Below are positions 8,367-51,442 of a stretch of DNA of 64,000 nucleotides, in pieces. A model generated the notes under the pieces. It had not been told where the DNA came from. It saw only the letters and a program-made list of their open reading frames with translations, and searched no databases. The stretch's first letter is position 1; every line of letters begins with the position of its first letter. The translations under genes were made by a program, and so were the position numbers. Source of the stretch: an uncultured Prevotellaceae bacterium (GTDB taxonomy: Bacteria > Bacteroidota > Bacteroidia > Bacteroidales > Bacteroidaceae); contig OMZE01000005.1 in assembly GCA_900315455.1 (NCBI GenBank), positions 1 through 64,000 on the forward strand. Reading direction: 5' to 3'.

Positions 8367-9212
8367 ATGGAGTACATCAAGTTATACAATGGTGTTGAGA
8401 TGCCGACATTGGGCTACGGCGTGTTTCTGGTGAGTCCTGATGAGTGTGAGCGGTGCGTGACGGATGCGCTGAACGTGGGTTACCGACTGATAGATACCGC
8501 ACAAGCCTACCAGAATGAGGAAGGCGTGGGCAATGCCTGGCGCAAGAGCGGCATCAAGCGCGAGGATCTGTTTCTCGTGACAAAGGTGTGGATTTCGAAC
8601 AACGGTGAGGAGAAGGCAGCCAAGAGCATCGACGAGAGTCTGCGCAAGTTGCAGACAGAGTACATCGACCTGCTGCTCATCCACCAGGCCTACGGCGACG
8701 TGTTCGGCACATGGCGGGCGATGGAGAAAGCCTATCGCGCCGGCAAGGTGCGTGCCATCGGCGTGTCGAACTTCCAGGCAGGACGTTTCTTCGACTTCGC
8801 CCACTATGTGGAGGTGAAGCCGATGGTGAACCAGTTGCAGTGCAACACCCTCATCCAGCAGACCGGCATCGAGACTATCCACGCAGAATTCGGTACGAAA
8901 ATGATGGCATGGGGACCGCTCGGCGGACAAGGCGTTGACGGCATTGTGAAGAGCGAGACACTGGCTGCCATCGGGGAAAAATACAATAAGTCTGCTGCCC
9001 AGGTTGCCCTCCGCTGGCTCACCCAGCGCGGCATCGTCGCCATCCCCAAAAGCAGTCACAAAGAGCGTATGGCGCAAAACTTTGACATCTTCGACTTCAC
9101 CCTGAGCGATGCCGATATGGCGCAAATCGCCCAGATGAACCAACACGACACTGGCACCATCAACTTCAGCGACCCGCAGTTTGTGAAGTACCTGATAGAG
9201 ACTTACGGATAA
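8367..9212 (+). CDS. Aldo/keto reductase (DkgA-like)
   Basis: 281 residues, a standard length for AKR5-type reductases. The catalytic tetrad is visible: Asp in RLIDTAQAY, Tyr in the same segment, Lys in LFLVTKVW and His in DLLLIHQAYG. The NADPH-binding end is AIPKSSHKERMAQNFDIFDF. It reduces aldehydes and ketones such as methylglyoxal or 2,5-diketogluconate using NADPH. It is the last gene of the operon, 11 nt after the YqhD-like gene, and is followed by a stem-loop at 9304-9332. Confidence 0.95.
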   Translation: MEYIKLYNGVEMPTLGYGVFLVSPDECERCVTDALNVGYRLIDTAQAYQNEEGVGNAWRKSGIKREDLFLVTKVWISNNGEEKAAKSIDESLRKLQTEYIDLLLIHQAYGDVFGTWRAMEKAYRAGKVRAIGVSNFQAGRFFDFAHYVEVKPMVNQLQCNTLIQQTGIETIHAEFGTKMMAWGPLGGQGVDGIVKSETLAAIGEKYNKSAAQVALRWLTQRGIVAIPKSSHKERMAQNFDIFDFTLSDADMAQIAQMNQHDTGTINFSDPQFVKYLIETYG

Positions 9213-9301
9213 GCGAAAACAACGATTTTGGCGGGCGAATGTGGCAAAAGCGATGCACATTTTCCCGCTATTCGTTAGTTTAGCGGTTAAAACTTACACG
9301 T

Positions 9302-9400
9302 GGAATGCCAGGGAGTGATTATCCCTGGCATTTCTGCTGTTTCGGCTATGGTGAGGCGGTTAGCAGTTGTTCTATTCATTAATCACCGCTGTTTGTTGAC
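9302..9400 (-). pseudogene. Relic of the 3' part of an AraC-family gene
   Basis: Read on the minus strand, about 28 bp from 9328 are identical to the second HTH region of the AraC gene at 13262 (both encode TIAETAEM). The following codons give PGIITPWHS where the intact gene has LGFDYPQHF. Just upstream the homology continues as EQLLTA against QQLLNAGH, but in a shifted frame. No complete HTH or start can be formed. It is a decayed fragment left between the AKR operon and the C10 protease gene. Confidence 0.6.
9304..9332 (+). terminator. Stem-loop after the aldo/keto reductase operon
   Basis: A perfect 11-bp stem (AATGCCAGGGA / TCCCTGGCATT) with a 7-nt loop lies 91 nt after the AKR stop. No good T-run follows (TCTGCTGTTT), so it may be a weak or Rho-assisted terminator. 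The same stem position exists, with different bases, inside the intact AraC gene near 13323-13357. Confidence 0.45.
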
Positions 9401-9613
9401 GCGAATCAGCATTCTCCATATAAATTATAATAGAGTGTTAACGGTTAGTAAACAGAAAAGATTTTCCATTTTTCCCGAAAAATATGGCCCAAAGCGCAGA
9501 AAAGTGGGTTAAAATAGTTTAATTGTTATTACTATTGCTGGTATTTCCCTACTTTTGTGAAGATTAAACTACTTGACTTAACTAGCCAAAAACACACCAA
9601 CACATTATAATAT
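9401..9613. other. Intergenic stretch before the C10 protease gene, with promoter -7 box
   Basis: AT-rich, no credible gene. It contains TACTTTTG at 9550-9557, a full match to the TAnnTTTG -7 box, placed 56 nt before the protease ATG. No TTTG lies at 19-21 nt; the nearest ATTG (9522-9525) is 24 nt away. Nothing else is recognised. Confidence 0.5.
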
Positions 9614-25517: not shown

Positions 25518-25822
25518 GAGTTCGGGAATGCAAAAAAACTCTTCGGTTTTTTGGCTTTCCGCTCGCTTAATCGTATACCTTTGACTTCGCCGAAGGTACT
25601 TGCGCTCGGCAATGGAAAGAAAAACTTTGTCTTTTCTTTCGCATTGCGCTCGCTTATTCGTACTTTGCCGCTGTGCGGCGAAGGTACTCACGCTCGGGAA
25701 ATTCCAAATAAAATTTGGATTTCCGCTCGCTTAATCGTACTTTGCCGCTGTGCGGCGAAGGTACTCACGCTCGGGAAATTCCAAATAAAATTTGGATTTC
25801 CGCTCGCTTAATCGTACCTTTG
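25518..25822 (+). repeat. Four-unit array of composite hairpin/promoter repeats before the helicase gene
   Basis: Units begin near 25518, 25603, 25691 and 25768; the last two spacings are 88 and 77 bp. Each has CTCGG, an AT-rich hairpin, CGCTCGCTTAATCG and a -7-like box; units 2 and 3 continue with CCGC-TGT-GCGG and CGAAGGTACTCA. Only the last, gene-proximal unit is a full promoter: TTTG (25791-25794)-N20-TACCTTTG (25815-25822). Units 2 and 3 have TACTTTG (25661-25667, 25738-25744), one base short. Unit 1 has TACCTTTG but a 22-nt spacer. Confidence 0.85.
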
Positions 25823-34194: not shown

Positions 34195-34365
34195 TATCTT
34201 TGCAAAGATAATGAAAGTCGAGCGCAGAACAAAATGAACTTGTTCATTTTTTATGCCGAGACGCATCTTATCTTAGCCACGTTGTGGCAAAGTAATGAAA
34301 GTCGAGCGCAGAACAAAATGAACTTATTCATTTTTTATGCCGAGACGCATCTTATCTTCGCCACA
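34195..34365 (-). repeat. Two-unit array of composite hairpin/promoter repeats before holA
   Basis: Unit length 84 bp. Read on the minus strand, the gene-proximal unit has TTTG (34233-34230)-N19-TATCTTTG (34210-34203), a perfect promoter for holA with a leader near 70 nt. The upstream unit has TTTG (34317-34314)-N19-TACTTTG (34294-34288), one base short, followed by hairpin GCCAC-AAC-GTGGC. Each unit also holds an AAAATGAA/TTCATTTT hairpin. The proximal -7 box lies in an 18-bp perfect palindrome (TTATCTTTG CAAAGATAA). Confidence 0.85.
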
Positions 34366-40558: not shown

Positions 40559-41629
40559 ATGCCAAACGACACCTATTTTCCCGCCGAATGGCATTACCAA
40601 AGTGGGGTACAACTTACCTGGCCCCATGCCGGCACCGACTGGAAAGACTGTCTTGACGAGATTACCGAGACATTCTTGCAGTTGGCGAAAGCCATTGCCA
40701 GCCATGAGCATCTGCTTGTGGTCTGTCCCGACGTGTGGGAACTGCGCGTGTTGCTCTCACAGCATCTCACCGCCGAGGAGATGCACCGTGTGCTCTTCTG
40801 CTGGTGCGACACCAATGACACATGGGCGCGCGACCATGGTGCCATCACCCTCCTCCACCCCACTCCTGACGGAGAAGTTCCCCTGTTGCTCAACTTCAAG
40901 TTCAATGGTTGGGGCGAGAAGTTCCCTTCCGACCTCGACGATGCCATCACCGGCGAGGTAGCCAACCATGGCCTGTTTCATGTCCCCCTTACCGACCACT
41001 CTGATTTCGTGCTCGAAGGCGGTTCGATAGAAACCGACGGCCTTGGCACCCTTTTCACCACCAGCATGTGCCTTCTGGCTCCCCATCACAACCCGTCGCT
41101 CACCCAAGCCGAGATAGAGGAGCGTCTGAAGTCGATGCTGTGTGTAGACCGTGTGGTATGGCTCGACCACGGCTCGCTGTTGGGCGACGACACCGACGGC
41201 CATATCGACACCATTGTGCGCTGCGCCCCCGACCACACCCTGCTCTACGTGGGGTGCGATGATACCGGCGACCCCCAATATGCCGATTTCCTCGCCTTGG
41301 AGCAACAACTTCAGGCTTTGCGCACCATCGACGGCAAGCCCTACCGTCTGCTCCGCCTTCCCATGCCCACTCCCATTTATGACGACGGCACCCGTTTGCC
41401 CGCCACCTACGCCAACTTTTTGGTGATTAATGGTGCTGTGATAGTGCCCACCTACCGTCAGCCCCGCAACGACGACATGGCCGCCGCCACCATTGCCCAG
41501 GCATTCCCCGGCCGCGAGGTCATCCGTATCGACGCCACCACGGTGATACGCCAGCATGGTTCGCTCCACTGCCTCACCATGCAATATCCCGATGGTGTGC
41601 TGGTGAAGCCCAACCCCGTGAACATCTGA
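40559..41629 (+). CDS. aguA: Agmatine deiminase
   Basis: 356 residues, PAD_porph family. Active-site pieces are FKFNGWGEKF, LEGGSIETDG, DDTDGHIDT and catalytic Cys338 in HGSLHCLTMQ. It hydrolyses agmatine to N-carbamoylputrescine and ammonia. The next gene encodes the enzyme that uses this product, which supports agmatine over peptidyl-arginine as substrate. Cytosolic. Confidence 0.95.
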   Translation: MPNDTYFPAEWHYQSGVQLTWPHAGTDWKDCLDEITETFLQLAKAIASHEHLLVVCPDVWELRVLLSQHLTAEEMHRVLFCWCDTNDTWARDHGAITLLHPTPDGEVPLLLNFKFNGWGEKFPSDLDDAITGEVANHGLFHVPLTDHSDFVLEGGSIETDGLGTLFTTSMCLLAPHHNPSLTQAEIEERLKSMLCVDRVVWLDHGSLLGDDTDGHIDTIVRCAPDHTLLYVGCDDTGDPQYADFLALEQQLQALRTIDGKPYRLLRLPMPTPIYDDGTRLPATYANFLVINGAVIVPTYRQPRNDDMAAATIAQAFPGREVIRIDATTVIRQHGSLHCLTMQYPDGVLVKPNPVNI

Positions 41630-41653
41630 AACCATTTTGTTGCTATCCTGTCT

Positions 41654-42562
41654 ATGAAACAACTGAAAATAGGTATTGTGCAACAGCACAACACCGCCGA
41701 CACCGCCGACAACATGCGCCGCCTTGCCGCAAGCATCACCTCCCTCTCCCAGCAGGGAGCACAACTCATCGTCCTCCAGGAGTTGCACAACTCGCTCTAT
41801 TTCTGCCAAACCGAGGATGTGGGAGAGTTTGACCAGGCAGAACCTGTCCCCGGCCCTTCGACTGCATTTTACGGTGCATTGGCCAAGGAGTGCCATGTGG
41901 TGCTGGTGACCTCACTTTTCGAGCGTCGTGCCCCCGGTCTCTACCACAACACCGCCGTGGTGTTCGACAGCGACGGCAACATGGCCGGCCGATATCGCAA
42001 GATGCACATCCCCGACGACCCTGCCTATTATGAGAAGTTCTACTTCACCCCCGGCGACCTCGGTTTCCATCCCATCGACACCAGCGTGGGCCGTTTGGGC
42101 GTGATGGTATGCTGGGACCAATGGTATCCCGAGGCAGCGCGACTGATGGCCCTTGCCGGTGCCGACCTGCTCATCTACCCCACCGCCATCGGCTATGAGA
42201 GCAGCGACACCCCCGAGGAACAGCAACGTCAGCGTGAGGCATGGACCACCGTGCAGCGCGGCCATGCCGTAGCCAACGGTCTTCCTGTGGTAGCCGTCAA
42301 CCGTGTGGGGCATGAGCCAGACCCCTCGGGCCAGACCCGTGGCATCATGTTCTGGGGAAGCAGTTTTGTGGCTGGTCCACAGGGCGAGTTGCTCTACCGT
42401 GCCAATGCCGATGACGAGGCTACCGCCGTAGTGGATGTCGACCTCGACCACAGCGAGCAAGTACGTCGCTGGTGGCCCTTTCTCCGCGACCGCCGCATAG
42501 AGGATTATGGGGATATTGTCAGGAGATTCAGGGACACTGGGCTTTGCCCAAATGAAAAATAA
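41654..42562 (+). CDS. aguB: N-carbamoylputrescine amidase
   Basis: 302 residues, nitrilase superfamily. The triad is Glu in LIVLQELHNSLYFCQ, Lys in YRKMHIPDDPAYYEKFYF and Cys153 in GVMVCWDQWYPEAARL. It converts N-carbamoylputrescine to putrescine, CO2 and ammonia. It is 24 nt after aguA. Together the two complete the arginine-agmatine route to polyamines; the arginine decarboxylase is not in the window. Confidence 0.97.
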   Translation: MKQLKIGIVQQHNTADTADNMRRLAASITSLSQQGAQLIVLQELHNSLYFCQTEDVGEFDQAEPVPGPSTAFYGALAKECHVVLVTSLFERRAPGLYHNTAVVFDSDGNMAGRYRKMHIPDDPAYYEKFYFTPGDLGFHPIDTSVGRLGVMVCWDQWYPEAARLMALAGADLLIYPTAIGYESSDTPEEQQRQREAWTTVQRGHAVANGLPVVAVNRVGHEPDPSGQTRGIMFWGSSFVAGPQGELLYRANADDEATAVVDVDLDHSEQVRRWWPFLRDRRIEDYGDIVRRFRDTGLCPNEK

Positions 42563-42609: not shown

Positions 42610-43857
42610 TTATTCCTTTCGCTTGATTGCCATCCAACCTGCTATGCACAGTGCTATGATGGCCATTGCCATCACCGCGATGAAGAAGCGGCGATAGCCG
42701 AGATAGTCTTGCATAACACCGGTGAGACATCCCGATATGATGATTGAGGCGATGACCAGCGACCAGCACATGTCGAGATGCACCTTTTCGCACACTTCCC
42801 CGTTGCCATACATTATATATAATATGAATGCCACTATGCCGAATCCGCAGCACCACTGCTCCACTGACAGGCAGACGGTGACGAGCCACAGTTCACTGGG
42901 CATGGTATAGGCCAAGAACACATATATGGCATCGGGCAGGGTGAAAGCCAGAGCCATCACCAGACACCATTTCCTCAGTCCGTTTTTCCTCACACATTCC
43001 ACCCCCATCACATATCCTGCCATGGCGATGATTGTTGCCACGGTACAGAAGGCAAATCCCATCTCCTGTGGACTGAACGAGAGTCCGCCGATGCTGCCTT
43101 TGTCGACGAGGAAGAGCAAGGTGCCTCTCCACAAGAAGAACTCATGCAGTGGAAAGAACAAGACGAAGAGCGCGAAGAGCCATCTCCTGTCGGCTTTCCA
43201 CCAATCCGCCATCGCTGTCTTGCGCTGTTGCCATGCTTCCACGACGGCAACATTTCTCCCCGTATCACTCATCTTGCCCACGGCAGCCCAAAGCAGGAAA
43301 GCGATGATGAGCACGATGGCTGTCGCCACCTTGAATGCCAGGGTCCACGACTCCTCGATATTTCTCGACACCACCTCCATGTTGCCTGCCAGCAACATCA
43401 TCACCCCCATGACGATGACCACAGCCATCAGTTTGCAGGGCACCATGGCTTTCAGTACGCCATAGTTCCTCTTTTCCAAGAGTTCCCTATTGTTTTCCGC
43501 GGCAGCAGCATCAAAACAAGCCCCGGCGATAGATGCCACCGCAAAGGCCACCCACATCTTCCAGTTGTCAGGGAAAAGAGTCATATTCTCCGCCACGACA
43601 TACATGGTCACGCCAAAGAGCACGAGTGAGAGCACCATCCACCATTTGCGTTGCCCCATAGTTTCCATCACAGGAGAGAGGAAGGGTCGCAGTGCCAACG
43701 GCAGCAAGAAGAGCGATGTGACAAGTGTTGCCACTCCATTGCCCATACCCAGCCGATTGAACATCACCAGGGATACAGCCATGAGCATCACCACCATACC
43801 CCTCGCGAAGCAAAGCAGAGGCAACGAAGCGTGGAATCGGTTTATTCTCTTTTGCAT
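42610..43857 (-). CDS. MFS permease, AmpG-related
   Basis: 415 residues, 12 predicted membrane segments. The layout and short motifs (MGNGVATLVTSLFLLPLALRPFLSPVMET; FVLFFPLHEFFLWRGTLLFLVDKG) resemble the AmpG branch of the MFS and the neighbouring permease. Inner membrane. It is third in a minus-strand unit behind the multidomain protein and the AmpG-like gene, 18 nt from the latter. The likely substrate is a cell-wall fragment or sugar; this is context only. Confidence 0.85.
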   Translation of the reverse strand: MQKRINRFHASLPLLCFARGMVVMLMAVSLVMFNRLGMGNGVATLVTSLFLLPLALRPFLSPVMETMGQRKWWMVLSLVLFGVTMYVVAENMTLFPDNWKMWVAFAVASIAGACFDAAAAENNRELLEKRNYGVLKAMVPCKLMAVVIVMGVMMLLAGNMEVVSRNIEESWTLAFKVATAIVLIIAFLLWAAVGKMSDTGRNVAVVEAWQQRKTAMADWWKADRRWLFALFVLFFPLHEFFLWRGTLLFLVDKGSIGGLSFSPQEMGFAFCTVATIIAMAGYVMGVECVRKNGLRKWCLVMALAFTLPDAIYVFLAYTMPSELWLVTVCLSVEQWCCGFGIVAFILYIMYGNGEVCEKVHLDMCWSLVIASIIISGCLTGVMQDYLGYRRFFIAVMAMAIIALCIAGWMAIKRKE

Positions 43858-43875: not shown

Positions 43876-45159
43876 TTATTCTTTTTTCTTTCCGAACTCA
43901 GGGTCGATTTTGATGAAGGCTGTCACGGCAAAGGTGATGATGCAAAGGAACATGACGATGATGAAGAAGGTGGAGTAGCCCACCGCATCCTTTATCCATC
44001 CCGACACCATGCCGGGGAGCATCAGTCCGAGGTACGACAACCCCGTGCAGATGGCATAGTGCGAAGTCTTGAACTCACCCTGGCTGTAATAAAGCATGTA
44101 GAGCGTCAGTGCGGTGAATCCCAGCCCATAGCCGAACTGCTCGATGAACAGACATGAACTGATGAGGAACAAGTTTCCCGGCTGCGCGAAACTGAGATAC
44201 ACATATACGATATCGGGCAGTGTGATGGCGCAGACGAAGGGCCACAGCCATCGTTTCAGTCCGTCGCGGCTTGCCAGCATGCCACCCACGATGCCGCCCA
44301 AGAGCAGTCCGATGAGTCCTACCGTGCCGTAAGCCAATCCGAAAGCCTCCTTGGTGAGGCCCAGTCCCCCCTCCTCCATCGGCCGCAGCAAGAACGTGCT
44401 GGCCATTTTGGTGAGCATGGCTTCAGGGAAACGATAGAGCAGCAGGAAGAGCAATACGAAGACTATTTGCTTGACGGGCACCTTGGTGAAGAACGAGGTG
44501 AGCATCTGCCACAGTCCGCGTGCCACATCACTTGCCGTAAGCCCATCGTTCTTCCGGTCTACTGGTCTTGGCATGGCAAAGCGATGATAGAGCCAGATGG
44601 CTATGAATATGGCAGAGAGTCCGAAGAAGATGAGGCTCCATGTGAAAGCCTTGCTGTCGGGGAATATCTCCTGCAACACTCCTGCCAACCACACCAGCAC
44701 CCCCTGTCCGAAGATGACAGCGATGCGGTAGAATGTGTTGCGGATGCCCACGAACCACGACTGGTCGTGACTATCGAGGTCGAGCATATAGAAGCCGTCG
44801 GCAGCGATGTCGTGCGTGGCACTGGAGAAGGCCATGAGGAAGAAGAAGAACATCGTGCCCTGGAACCAGAATGACGTGTTCACCGTGAATGCCACTCCTG
44901 CAAACGCCGCTCCCAGGAGCAGTTGCATGGTGAGCACCCACCATCGTTTGGTCTTGAACAGGTCAACGAACGGACTCCACAGCGGCTTGATGACCCACGG
45001 CAGTCCGAGCCAACTCGTATAGAGGGCTATCTCGGTGTCGGTCATGCCCATTTCCATGTACATCACCACTGCCACGGTCATTACCACCACATTGGGCAGA
45101 CCTTCGGCGAAATATAGCGTGGGAATCCATGCCCACGGGTTTCTCTTTTTTTCCATCAT
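43876..45159 (-). CDS. ampG: AmpG-like muropeptide permease
   Basis: The ATG at 45159 (MMEKKRNPWAW) gives 428 residues; sequence further upstream belongs to the preceding gene's end. AmpG features are WIPTLYFAEGLPNVVVM at the N-terminus, SWLGLPWVIKPLWSPFVDLFKTKRWW, SATHDIAADGFYM and RFPEAMLTKMASTFLL. Twelve membrane segments. AmpG imports anhydromuropeptides for peptidoglycan recycling. The gene begins 2 nt after the SpoIID-domain fusion gene ends, which ties the two together. Confidence 0.87.
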   Translation of the reverse strand: MMEKKRNPWAWIPTLYFAEGLPNVVVMTVAVVMYMEMGMTDTEIALYTSWLGLPWVIKPLWSPFVDLFKTKRWWVLTMQLLLGAAFAGVAFTVNTSFWFQGTMFFFFLMAFSSATHDIAADGFYMLDLDSHDQSWFVGIRNTFYRIAVIFGQGVLVWLAGVLQEIFPDSKAFTWSLIFFGLSAIFIAIWLYHRFAMPRPVDRKNDGLTASDVARGLWQMLTSFFTKVPVKQIVFVLLFLLLYRFPEAMLTKMASTFLLRPMEEGGLGLTKEAFGLAYGTVGLIGLLLGGIVGGMLASRDGLKRWLWPFVCAITLPDIVYVYLSFAQPGNLFLISSCLFIEQFGYGLGFTALTLYMLYYSQGEFKTSHYAICTGLSYLGLMLPGMVSGWIKDAVGYSTFFIIVMFLCIITFAVTAFIKIDPEFGKKKE

Positions 45160-45161
45160 GC

Positions 45162-48100
45162 TTACCTGTAAAGTTTCTTTATCTGCGCTCCACGGTAGTA
45201 GTGAAGCAGTATCTGGTCGTAGGAGAATCCCTTCTCTCCCATCATTGCCGCGCCTATCTGACAGAGTCCCACGCCGTGTCCCCATCCTGCACCGTGCAGG
45301 ATGAACCGTGCGGGCAGTCCGTCGGTCTCACCCTCAGTATCGACGACGAAAGCCGAACTGAGCAGGTGAGTCTCGCTGAGCGCGCGTCTTATCTCCAGTT
45401 CCTTCCCTATGGTGAGGGTGTGCTCAGTACCCTCTATGCGCAGTTTCGAGATACGTCCACTTCGGCCGCGCTCCACCACGGTGAGTGCCTTGATGCCGCC
45501 GAAATCTATTTTCAGTTTGTCGGCCACGAGGCGTGCCACCTCCTCCTGACTGAGCACAACCCTCCATCGATAGAAATCGGAGGTTTCGGTGTCGTAGTCG
45601 TTGAGCACCTGTTGGAGCACATTGGCATCAGAAGTGTTGCAGTAAGCCTCCGGACTGTCAAGAATCCATTTTCTGGCGTTCTGCTCCACCCTCAAGTCTA
45701 TTAGTCCTCCCTCTGCCCTGTCGGGCACCGACCTCAGGTAAGGTTTCGCGAGGTTATCCCAACAATACTGGAACTCCTCCGTCACTCCTCCACAGCACTT
45801 GCTGAAACGTGCATCGCAGATGTCGCCGTCGAAGACGAGCACCTGTCCTCTTGTGGCCTCCACGGCTGCCGCCGCCTTCCGTCCCACCGCTCTGGTGATG
45901 CCCTGGTAGCGCTGACAGTGGTCGTCGGCGCAGACGTCGAAGATGGTATGGTCTTCGCGGTCGTACCATTTGATGAGTTCGTCGTCTTTCTTGACGAAGG
46001 AGAAGAAATTCTCTCCCGACTTCTTCAGGTTGTTGCGTCGTTCCATCTGTGCAAGGAGCCAACTCCGTGAGATGACGGCATGCGCCTTGAGCAGTTCGTC
46101 GGATGCCGTTGCCTTCATCTCGCTGGAGATGACGCTGGTGAGGTATTCCTCTACCGGCAGCAGGTTGATGGCACACACCTTGTCGGCCTCCACCACCAGC
46201 CGCAGAGCCCCTCTGAAGGTCTGCACTTCTTTCCGCTCCCAATGGAAGTCGATGCCTATGGTGACATCGTGGAGCGAGAACGAAGCCTGCGCATTCTTCG
46301 GAACAAATGACAGTTCGCGGTACTGCCTTCCGCCCCATGCAATGCCTCCTTCAGAGAACTCCACCACCTGTTCACCCTCGATGCTCTCCCCTTTTGCCAT
46401 GTACGGCATATTGAGAGAGAACCTGATGGTCTTTCCGCTCACTATACCCACAGCCACCTGTGGTTCTTTCGCGCTGTTCTTTTCGTTTCGTTTCTCTGCC
46501 GTTTTTCCTTTCAGCAAGTCTATCACGGCAGCCATATCATCGTCGCTGATAGCCACTTCCCTGAGTATACCGATGGCACTCTCGGCACTGATGCGGTCGA
46601 AATCGTCGCGCCGTGGCGTGATGAGGAGTCCTGCCATGTCGAGAGCCCCCGGACTGACAAGCATCTGCCTGTCGCCCTCGTCGTAGTAGCATGCCGGGCG
46701 GTGGCGCCGCCGTGGGAAGACCACAGAGAGGAACTCCTCCTTTGTTCTCCAACTCACGATGTTCATCATGGGTTCCTCTCCCCTCTGTCGTTCCGCATCC
46801 TTCACCTCGCCATCCAGGGCCTGATAGAGTTTCCTGAACAGCCGTTCGTCGTTCGTCCTGTCCTGGCTTCTGATGAGCAACGCATGACAGGGATAGTCGT
46901 CGATGACATAGATGCCGTTGCCCTCATCGATGGTCACCAATGGCTGCAGGTTGCGGCATAGCCGTGGCCATGCCGTTTGCAGCGGCAGTTGTCCTGTCGT
47001 GCCCGCCTGCAGGTGCAAGTGGTCGGGAGCCGAGGCCCCGCATCGTGGTCCGTTGTAGAACACTGTGATTTCGGGATTTGTCTCGAGCAACTTATGTATC
47101 TCCGAATAGTTGTCGGCTATCTGCTGAGGCTGGTGCCGTCGCGCGGTTATAGTAAAATGAGAGTTGAGTATGGGGAATGGATTCACGAGGATATCCAGTT
47201 TTGCGTCGAAGGGCTTGACGATTTGTTCCTCTGGCCGGTTTTTCGCACAGAGGAAACACGGGCGCTCGCTGATATCCTGTTTCGACACTTTCGCCCCCGT
47301 GGAGACGATGCGAGCGGGATTCCACTGTGCCACGAGCGAGATGGTGTTGTCGTCGTTCTGCAGTTGCCGTGTCTCCACGGCATTCAGGTCGCGGTAGCGC
47401 TGTCGGGCATCAGGCCACAGTTCAAGTTGTCGGTTGAAGAACCTCACGAGCGAATTGTCCTCCATATAGTTTCCCTTTCCGCTGGCCATGCGTTGGCGTG
47501 CGGCTATCTCAAGGGTGCGCAGTTGGTCCTTGTAGGTGTTGTTGGCGTTCACTCGCTCTATGGAGAGTGCGGCGTCGCTATTTCCTCCCCACCGGCGGCA
47601 GAGGTACAGTTCGTCGTAGATACGTCCGATGCGGTATCTGCGGCTGAAAGCCAGTCCCATGGCATAGTCTTCGCCATAACTGGTATTGGGCAAGAGAATC
47701 TGTCTTAGCAGTGGTGTGAAGAATGCGCGTGGTGCTCCCAGTCCGTTGATGCGCAGCGCGTTGTTGCACCCATTGTCTTCGGTCCACTCACGATGGTCGA
47801 TGATTCCCGGCGGCAGCGTGTTGAGGTCGAAGTCACACATTCTGTATGCCCCCACCACCATTGCAGCCCGCTGTTTGTAGAACGCGTCGACGATGCGTTG
47901 CAGCGTTTGAGGCGAAGAGTAGAGGTCATCGCTGTCGAGTTGCACGGCGAAGCGTCCGCAGCGGTCGTCGACGACAGCGGTGTTCCAGCATCCGCCGATG
48001 CCCAAGTCGGTGCGGTCGGGGATGATGTGCACGAGGCGTGGGTTGTCGTATGCTTTCAGCAGTTGTGTAGTGCGGTCGGTGGAATGGTTGTCGACGACGA

Positions 48101-48947
48101 TGACGTTGTAGTCGAACGAGGTTTTCTGCGACAGTGCAGAATCCACCGCATCGCAGATGGTCTTCTCCCTGTTGTATACAGGTATGATGACCGATGCCTC
48201 GTACTTGAAATCCTGTTCCTTGAAGTCGGGCGTGGCATAACTGTTGGTGTCCACCAGTGCCCCAATCTCCCTCAGGTGGTTGGTGGCAGCCTTCTCCATC
48301 TCTACCTGCACCTCACGGTTGCGTGGGTTCACATAGTCGAACTGTTTCTCTCCACTTGCCCTGAGGTCGAGTTCCTGTTCGGTATACAGGTATTCGTTCA
48401 AGTGCAAGAGGGTTCCCTTGCGGCTGATGAAGAGGCGCAGGTCGTAGATGCCCGCAAACTGGTATTGCGGCAGTTTCTCCTGTCGCAAGTATTCGTGCAG
48501 CAGTTCCGAGCGTATGAGGAGTATCGACCCGAAGTCGAAGTCGTCGCGGATGCTGCCCGGTTGGTAGTCGATAACAGGATGCTTCACCGCCTTGCCGTTT
48601 TCCATGGAATAGTGGTCGGCATAGACGAGTGCCGCCCCTGCATCCTTGGCCACCCTAAGGAGCCGTTCGGCGGCATACATGCCGAGGGTGACGGGAGTGC
48701 TCTTCGTGAAGAGCATCACGAAGTCGGCCTCTGTATGTTGTTGCATGGCTACTACGGCAGCCGTAGACTGCAACCTGTTGACGGGCAGCAGGGTACAGTC
48801 TGCCGGGCAGTCGCCTTCGGGCTGCTGTCCTTCACCCACGAGCAGGTAGATATGATGTATGGTCTTGTCGGTGCGCAACTGGCTCACTGTCATCTCTGCC
48901 ACGTCCATGTTGTCGCACGGCAGGAAGCAGTCGATTTTTCCTCTCAT
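45162..48947 (-). CDS. Multidomain protein: two GT-A-like domains, DUF4922 (HIT/GalT-like) and SpoIID domain
   Basis: 1261 residues from the ATG at 48947. No signal peptide or membrane segment is seen. Residues 1-235 look like a degenerate GT-A domain ([34 protein letters not shown]). Residues 243-513 are a clear GT2 glycosyltransferase ([49 protein letters not shown]). Residues 550-740 are a DUF4922/HIT-like nucleotidyltransferase ([32 protein letters not shown] at 643-647). Residues 828-1261 are SpoIID/LytB-like ([15 protein letters not shown] with the catalytic Glu, [33 protein letters not shown]). SpoIID relatives cleave peptidoglycan glycan strands outside the cytosol, so a cytosolic copy is odd. 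Confidence 0.88.
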
Positions 48948-51172: not shown

Positions 51173-51430
51173 CGCGAAGCGGCGAAGGTACTTCGCTCGG
51201 GAAAGCAAAAAAATCTGCGTATTTTGTTTTGATTTCCGCTCGCATAATCGTACTTTGCCGCTTCGCGGCGAAGGTACTCACGCTCGGGAAAGCAAAAAAA
51301 TCTGCGATTTTTGTTTTGATTTCCGCTCGCTTAATCGTACTTTGCCGCTTCGCGGCGAAGGGACTCACGCTCGGGAAAGCAAAAAAATCTGCGATTTTTT
51401 TTGCTTTCCACTCGCTTAATCGTACCTTTG
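51173..51430 (+). repeat. Three-unit array of composite hairpin/promoter repeats before rlmN
   Basis: CTCGGGAAAGC marks the units at 51196, 51283 and 51370 (period 87 bp). The first two end in TTTG-N19-TACTTTG (51251-51257, 51338-51344), one base short, followed by GCCGC-TTC-GCGGC and CGAAGG. The last ends in TTTG (51400-51403)-N19-TACCTTTG (51423-51430), a perfect promoter, 12 nt before the rlmN ATG. The last unit also has a near-perfect 16-bp A/T hairpin whose 3' arm includes the TTTG. Confidence 0.88.
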
Positions 51431-51442
51431 CAAACGGAAACA

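Follow-up and report, generated by a model that had tools for sequence, protein, structure and literature searches.

Proteins of the SpoIID/LytB family are usually exported or anchored in a membrane, and those of the lytic transglycosylase class form an anhydro ring at MurNAc. Known SpoIIDs make such anhydro ends, and we know of no SpoIID that opens them. Two members, both acting outside the cytosol, have been described: the C. difficile enzyme requires a peptide-free glycan (PMC6221140), and the Waddlia enzyme is reported to have a muramidase-like action on denuded glycan (PMC6635528). Among gene clusters, the closest described one is an operon of T. forsythia, for which PMC5388701 gives the order xanthan lyase, gtf, gtf, lytB, ampG, ybbC (Tanf_08345-08370), a shared transcript with murT, murK and murQ that extends to Tanf_08385, control of Tanf_08345-08385 by GppX and the label glycosylation-related. 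From gene order and annotation, the second gtf is taken here as DUF4922 and lytB as SpoIID. T. forsythia AmpG takes up GlcNAc-anhMurNAc and GlcNAc-MurNAc and is required when the organism grows on wall fragments; its growth was lower on Slt70 (anhydro) digests than on mutanolysin digests and poor on free anhMurNAc, and AnmK and AmgK are said to be absent from P. gingivalis (PMC7670621). Furthermore, anhMurNAc is not phosphorylated by T. forsythia MurK (PMC5790795). In a literature search that covers few subscription journals, no study of the proteins encoded by the two gtf genes and lytB, and no functional study of DUF4922, was found.

The locus described here lies in a window of 64,000 nucleotides, the whole stretch of DNA that was analysed, and consists of a fusion gene followed by AmpG-like permease genes (Table 1). 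Its nearest named relatives in a scan of genome contigs were from uncultured Prevotellaceae, from which its order was taken to be Bacteroidales. The order gtf, gtf, lytB, ampG of the T. forsythia operon matches the fusion gene and its permease. The two differ in that T. forsythia has three separate genes in place of the single fusion gene and has ybbC and murTKQ after ampG, a place taken in the window by a second MFS gene. Moreover, T. forsythia has murQ, whereas no MurQ was seen in the draft genome of the window, which carries presumed AmgK/MurU-like genes elsewhere. Scans for promoters and terminators returned 2 sites (4.2 expected) and 12 sites (5.3 expected), respectively.

Table 1. Positions of the genes, domains and motif of the fusion locus in the window
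Feature	Position	Strand	Details
Second, diverged AmpG-like MFS gene	42610..43857	minus	Same gene run, after first permease
AmpG-like MFS permease	43876..45159	minus	ATG at 45159, two bases past fusion stop codon
GT-A/GT-A/DUF4922/SpoIID fusion protein	45162..48947	minus	1261 residues; ATG 48947, stop TAA 45164-45162
N-terminal GT-A-like domain	48207..48947	minus	Residues 1-247; no Pfam match
GT2 glycosyltransferase domain	47502..48206	minus	Residues 248-482; QLDSDD
DUF4922 domain	46500..47468	minus	Residues about 494-816; predicted Apa2 fold, HLHLQ
SpoIID/LytB domain	45168..46478	minus	Residues about 824-1260; catalytic-type Glu943, GWGHGVG 1221-1227
H-x5-C-x3-HC motif	45915..45950	minus	H1000, C1006, H1010, C1011 of SpoIID domain

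A preliminary description of this DNA had proposed a single chain with two GT-A-like domains, a DUF4922 domain and a SpoIID domain, and this architecture, with a putative GT-A fold for the N-terminal domain, was borne out by translation of the window, which gave one unbroken ORF, by profile matches and by predicted structures. Pfam and NCBIfam models matched the chain at residues 252-382 (GT2), 503-649 (DUF4922) and 926-1258 (complete SpoIID/LytB). The GT2 domain scored 76.5 bits against PF00535 (cut-off, 23.3), and its D338, D340 and D341 were invariant among 50 sequences. Within the GT pair, the GT2 signature is found only in the second domain; residues 1-247 gave no match to Pfam, and a profile comparison between them and the GT2 domain returned a probability of 9.7%. 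The chondroitin polymerase K4CP (2z86) aligns across both GT domains of the predicted model, in which the fusion, like K4CP, would have tandem GT-A domains, two per chain. Unlike in K4CP, the recognisable GT2 signature is confined to the second of these, and the domain arrangement deviates between the two (rmsd, 21.5). As modelled, the GT pair resembles chondroitin polymerase, a likeness that does not imply polymer synthesis.

The DUF4922 domain matched PF16269 at 206.8 bits (cut-off, 23.6), and H643, H645 and Q647 of its HLHLQ motif were invariant among 52 sequences. Its predicted structure has the fold of the Ap4A phosphorylase Apa2 (4i5t), with the HxHxQ motif, at 14-15% identity; it stayed below the Pfam Ap4A_phos_N cut-off (19.6 versus 23.1 bits), and ADP-glucose phosphorylase (2h39) and GalT were more distant fold matches. 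The generic label HIT/GalT-like of the preliminary description was replaced by Apa2-like on the basis of the predicted structure. An Apa2/GalT-type domain would be compatible with sugar re-activation, and the fold would equally suit a phosphorylase that breaks nucleotide-sugars. The SpoIID domain matched TIGR02669 (170 bits; cut-off, 83.3) and PF08486 (82.7 bits; cut-off, 23) and fell below the cut-off of TIGR02870, the stage II sporulation protein D equivalog (133.1 versus 234.75 bits). Its catalytic Glu lies in an SEM context, and the predicted structure has the family fold, with C. difficile SpoIID (5i1t) and B. anthracis 4rwr as matches to the model. The H-x5-C-x3-HC motif is likely the counterpart of the C. 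difficile zinc site, whose H134, C140, H145 and C146 correspond by motif spacing to H1000, C1006, H1010 and C1011. Two features set the fusion apart from SpoIID/LytB lytic transglycosylases, namely, its lack of a signal peptide or membrane anchor and the joining of its SpoIID domain to GT and Apa2-like domains.

Signal peptides were judged from hydropathy and by eye. By hydropathy, neither a signal peptide nor a membrane segment was found in the 1261-residue chain, in agreement with the preliminary description: the highest 19-residue window reached 1.26, compared with 2.91 for the AmpG control. Signal-like N-termini were seen in 5 of 57 stand-alone SpoIIDs (L135, L205, L207, L209 and L210), and 44 of the remaining 52 have 15 residues or fewer ahead of the conserved beginning of the domain. 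The eight exceptions are L079, which is cut by a contig end; L200, which has a hydrophobic extension, yet has an internal Met that fits its relative L201; and L073, L144, L169, L178, L202 and L203, none with a clear signal, where other starts are possible or the motif varies. In a FastTree phylogeny of 121 SpoIIDs, rooted on four of the five signal-bearing sequences and leaving out frames of <300 codons (the two pieces of the broken L191 gene among them), these five all fell outside the 116 others (group support, 0.72). Both sorts occur within single genomes, G035 (L204 and L205) and G156 (L206 and L207). One exported-type SpoIID gene (L209, 4488-6760) has a four-base overlap with the end of an LpxB gene.

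By sequence, then, the fusion protein is of the cytosolic type, as had been claimed, and most stand-alone members of its clade likewise start at the domain. An unrecognised export route could still take it to the periplasm, where its SpoIID domain would act on the wall. The characterised SpoIIDs known to us, among them those of PMC6221140 and PMC6635528, do work outside the cytosol, and the lytB product of T. forsythia carries the annotation "amidase enhancer precursor" (PMC5388701). Nevertheless, we regard this as highly improbable, since the fusion chain has no hydrophobic segment, its SpoIID domain sits C-terminal to nucleotide-using domains and the 44 clade members begin at the domain while five other SpoIIDs keep their signals.

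The scan of genome contigs confirmed 146 related stretches, the best 80 of which were used as loci. Among these best 80 of 146, the triple fusion was present in 54, from many assemblies, isolates among them, and the parts were split over two or three ORFs in 22 (GT plus DUF4922 with a separate SpoIID, 10; GT with DUF4922 plus SpoIID, 7; three separate genes, 5); the other four were incomplete in the stretch or seemingly broken (L061, L076, L077 and L079). In other Bacteroidota, GT, DUF4922 and SpoIID are separate genes of about 490, 335 and 445 codons, which often, although not always, adjoin. SpoIID and DUF4922 do therefore occur as separate neighbours, in split loci of other genomes, a point that the preliminary description had proposed to check. 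It had also named a frameshift or the joining of separate genes as a possible refutation, and such an assembly artefact might be suspected from the separate genes of other genomes. However, recurrence of the triple fusion across so many assemblies rules it out, leaving a practically negligible probability. In the fusion, the three genes of one module (GT didomain, DUF4922 and SpoIID) are joined, and since these genes stand apart, often adjoining, in other Bacteroidota, it records a pre-existing partnership.

An AmpG-like MFS gene was the next gene in 71 of the best 80 of 146 loci (median gap, 6 bases), lay within three genes in 2 more and was unseen in the next three in 4; in the remaining 3, the stretch ends before its position can be judged. 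This linkage, together with the co-transcribed T. forsythia operon (PMC5388701), supports the connection to imported wall glycans made in the preliminary description, which had suggested an enzyme that cuts and re-activates them. The term wall glycans was too broad, the likely substrate being peptide-free disaccharides with or without a 1,6-anhydro ring. The first permease of the window scored 167.6 bits against TIGR00901, below the cut-off of 350 bits that no AmpG match in 149 genomes of the order reached; the second AmpG-like gene (42610-43857) is kept in close relatives (54% in L009) and absent from others.

The ORFs of 140 loci (the best 80 of 146 and 60 around split genes) were clustered, and ten neighbour-cluster representatives were annotated. 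NamZ neighbours were present in 11 of the 140 loci, BadF-type kinases in 11 and 7 (two clusters), golvesin-C proteins of about 1000 residues in 8, proteins with GH3 and a beta-lactamase-family domain in 7 and GT4-type proteins in 16. We take the kinases to be of the MurK family, the ybbC of T. forsythia to be NamZ and, from its position, a cluster in 4 loci to be MurQ-like; what is called "xanthan lyase" in the T. forsythia operon may correspond to the golvesin-C protein. By eye, NamZ and GH3 neighbours have signal peptides or lipoboxes at their start, and the kinases and MurQ do not; the NamZ and GH3/beta-lactamase neighbours thus look exported, and those of the MurK and MurQ types look cytosolic. 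Beside AmpG, it is the proteins of the module that recur without signals and with glycan-enzyme domains. Elsewhere in the phylum, in other classes, signal-less SpoIID genes frequently have a GT4-type glycosyltransferase gene (about 370 codons) behind them (L192, L193, L195, L196, L153, L160 and others), often with no AmpG-like gene in the stretch that was fetched. In L170, a signal-less NagZ-type GH3 gene (8525-9604) adjoins GT-DUF4922, which contradicts a full replacement of NagZ by the module.

For counts across genomes, presence of DUF4922 alone was taken as presence of the module. Among 149 genomes of the order, AmpG was found in all 40 with DUF4922 versus 15 of 109 without (five of these 15 matches, in G339, G345, G356, G402 and G432, are weak), SpoIID in 40/40 versus 49/109, MurQ in 23/40 versus 15/109 and AnmK in 6/40 versus 94/109. 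A weak partial DUF4922 match (G424) was not counted; including it gives 7/41 versus 93/108 for AnmK. MurQ was counted in 38 genomes with matches at E values of 1.4e-50 or better; the other matches listed lay mostly in frames as long as GlmS (about 610-655 codons) and were not counted, and G402 (E value, 3e-19) and a few shorter-frame matches are also omitted. From the genomes with listed coordinates, 100 of the 149 were fetched for a GlmS tree as a control for relatedness, of which 3 had no GlmS frame and 97 were used, including 24 of the 40 module genomes. Among 14 independent pairs, chosen greedily on this one midpoint-rooted gene tree, AnmK differed in 8 and was absent from the module member in all 8 (two-sided sign test, 0.008), and AmpG differed in 13 and was present in the module member in all 13. 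Thus, the module in Bacteroidales tends to stand where AnmK is missing. The trend was weaker in a phylum sample of 296 genomes, with AnmK in 17/41 DUF4922 genomes versus 189/255 others, or 20/44 versus 186/252 if three uncounted weak DUF4922 matches, all in genomes with AnmK (G027, G136 and G160), are included; Bacteroides ihuae, a named control, has module and AnmK together.

AmpG is present and AnmK absent in 34 of the 40 module genomes (clear MurQ in 17 of the 34), so an imported anhydro-disaccharide needs another handler. Conversely, 82 of the 94 genomes with AnmK but no module lack AmpG; import, not this step, may therefore be what separates the two sets, which may reflect two alternative recycling layouts and not a single-enzyme swap. 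Across the order sample, 71 of 149 genomes have AnmK without an AmpG match or clear MurQ. MurQ was considered as a general exit and set aside, being clear in just 23 of the 40 module genomes and unseen in that of the window. The latter has one SpoIID match and two AmpG-model matches, both at the fusion locus; AnmK was not found, and the sole MurQ-model match is of GlmS length, absences that are provisional in a draft assembly whose 93 contigs carry an estimated contamination of 8%. Elsewhere in this genome (L223, 2344-4716), a kinase (APH) fused to a RapZ C-terminal domain lies beside a sugar nucleotidyltransferase, a pair that we take, from its domain types, to be AmgK/MurU-like.

On balance, and with modest confidence, we favour the view that the fusion protein processes, in the cytosol, peptide-free wall disaccharides brought in through the adjoining AmpG-like permease. 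It probably breaks down recycled cell-wall pieces inside the cell, and the module is best read as an AnmK-independent cytosolic salvage system whose chemistry we infer. Such a system would share an imported substrate and downstream sugars with the AnmK-NagZ-MurQ and AmgK-MurU pathways, in neither of which a counterpart of the module is known to us, and would differ from the former where AnmK is missing. The permease would bring peptide-free disaccharides into the cytosol, and the SpoIID domain would act on the anhydroMurNAc end, opening the ring with water or another acceptor by lytic-transglycosylase machinery. Protonation and water attack at the site where this enzyme class forms the ring would achieve such opening. 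Ring opening would yield MurNAc, usable by AmgK/MurU or MurK/MurQ, and the GlcNAc part would pass through a nucleotide-sugar, by way of the GT domains and Apa2-like phosphorylase. Ring opening by a SpoIID would be chemically reasonable, the Waddlia member being reported as hydrolytic (PMC6635528), and peptide-free glycan is both the described SpoIID substrate and what T. forsythia AmpG imports. The presence of a GT alongside an Apa2-type phosphorylase points to UDP-GlcNAc as the intermediate through which the GlcNAc-MurNAc bond would be handled. The complete route would combine opening of the 1,6-anhydro ring in GlcNAc-anhMurNAc by a SpoIID of the cytosol with a split of the disaccharide into MurNAc and GlcNAc-1-phosphate by the GT, reversed with UDP, and an Apa2-like NDP-sugar phosphorylase; as one joint proposal, it is tentative and doubtful. 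If true, it would amount to a net energy-saving phosphorolysis that spares AnmK, with intermediates channelled by the triple fusion.

Salvage in general is favoured by the AmpG linkage and co-occurrence, the avoidance of AnmK, the intact catalytic motifs and the signal-less SpoIID clade. Against it stand the weaker AnmK avoidance in the phylum, the 6 of 40 order genomes with both AnmK and module, the lower growth of T. forsythia on anhydro digests (PMC7670621) and the other-class SpoIIDs beside GT4-type genes without AmpG in the fetched stretch; the NagZ-type gene in L170 speaks against a NagZ-replacing role. The retained catalytic Glu, zinc-site motif and C. difficile-type fold would also fit an ordinary lytic transglycosylase that trims longer imported peptide-free glycans to GlcNAc-anhMurNAc, with GT and DUF4922 recharging the sugars. 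We think this improbable, as T. forsythia AmpG is known for disaccharides (PMC7670621) and the product would still require AnmK, absent in those 34 of 40 module genomes. Also unlikely is a biosynthetic role, in which the GT-A pair would assemble a glycan or glycoconjugate from recycled GlcNAc or MurNAc, with DUF4922 supplying or trimming the nucleotide-sugar and SpoIID editing or releasing what is made, be it a polymer, a signal or a primed wall unit. The predicted likeness of the GT pair to chondroitin polymerase, the intact GT2 motifs, the additional GT4-type gene near SpoIID in split genomes and the glycosylation-related label of the T. forsythia operon (PMC5388701) are consistent with it, but none of the ten annotated neighbour types is a flippase or polymer exporter, a weak argument against biosynthesis, and NamZ and MurK-type kinases are present.

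Wall recycling bears on beta-lactam responses, on the release of immune-active fragments and on the survival of MurNAc auxotrophs. If cytosolic salvage by the module is correct, Bacteroidales would have an AnmK-free route with a SpoIID enzyme in the cytosol, a new location and possibly a new reaction for this family, and DUF4922 would gain a metabolic place. Elsewhere in the window, adjoining genes of the agmatine deiminase type (PAD_porph) and for a carbon-nitrogen hydrolase (40559-42562, plus strand) are convergent with the recycling operon. Tandem arrays at 25647-25822 and 51179-51431, with 77 and 87 bases per unit, share a core that includes CGGCGAAGGTACTCACGCTCGGGAAA, and a third array, with 84 bases per unit, lies at 34202-34364.
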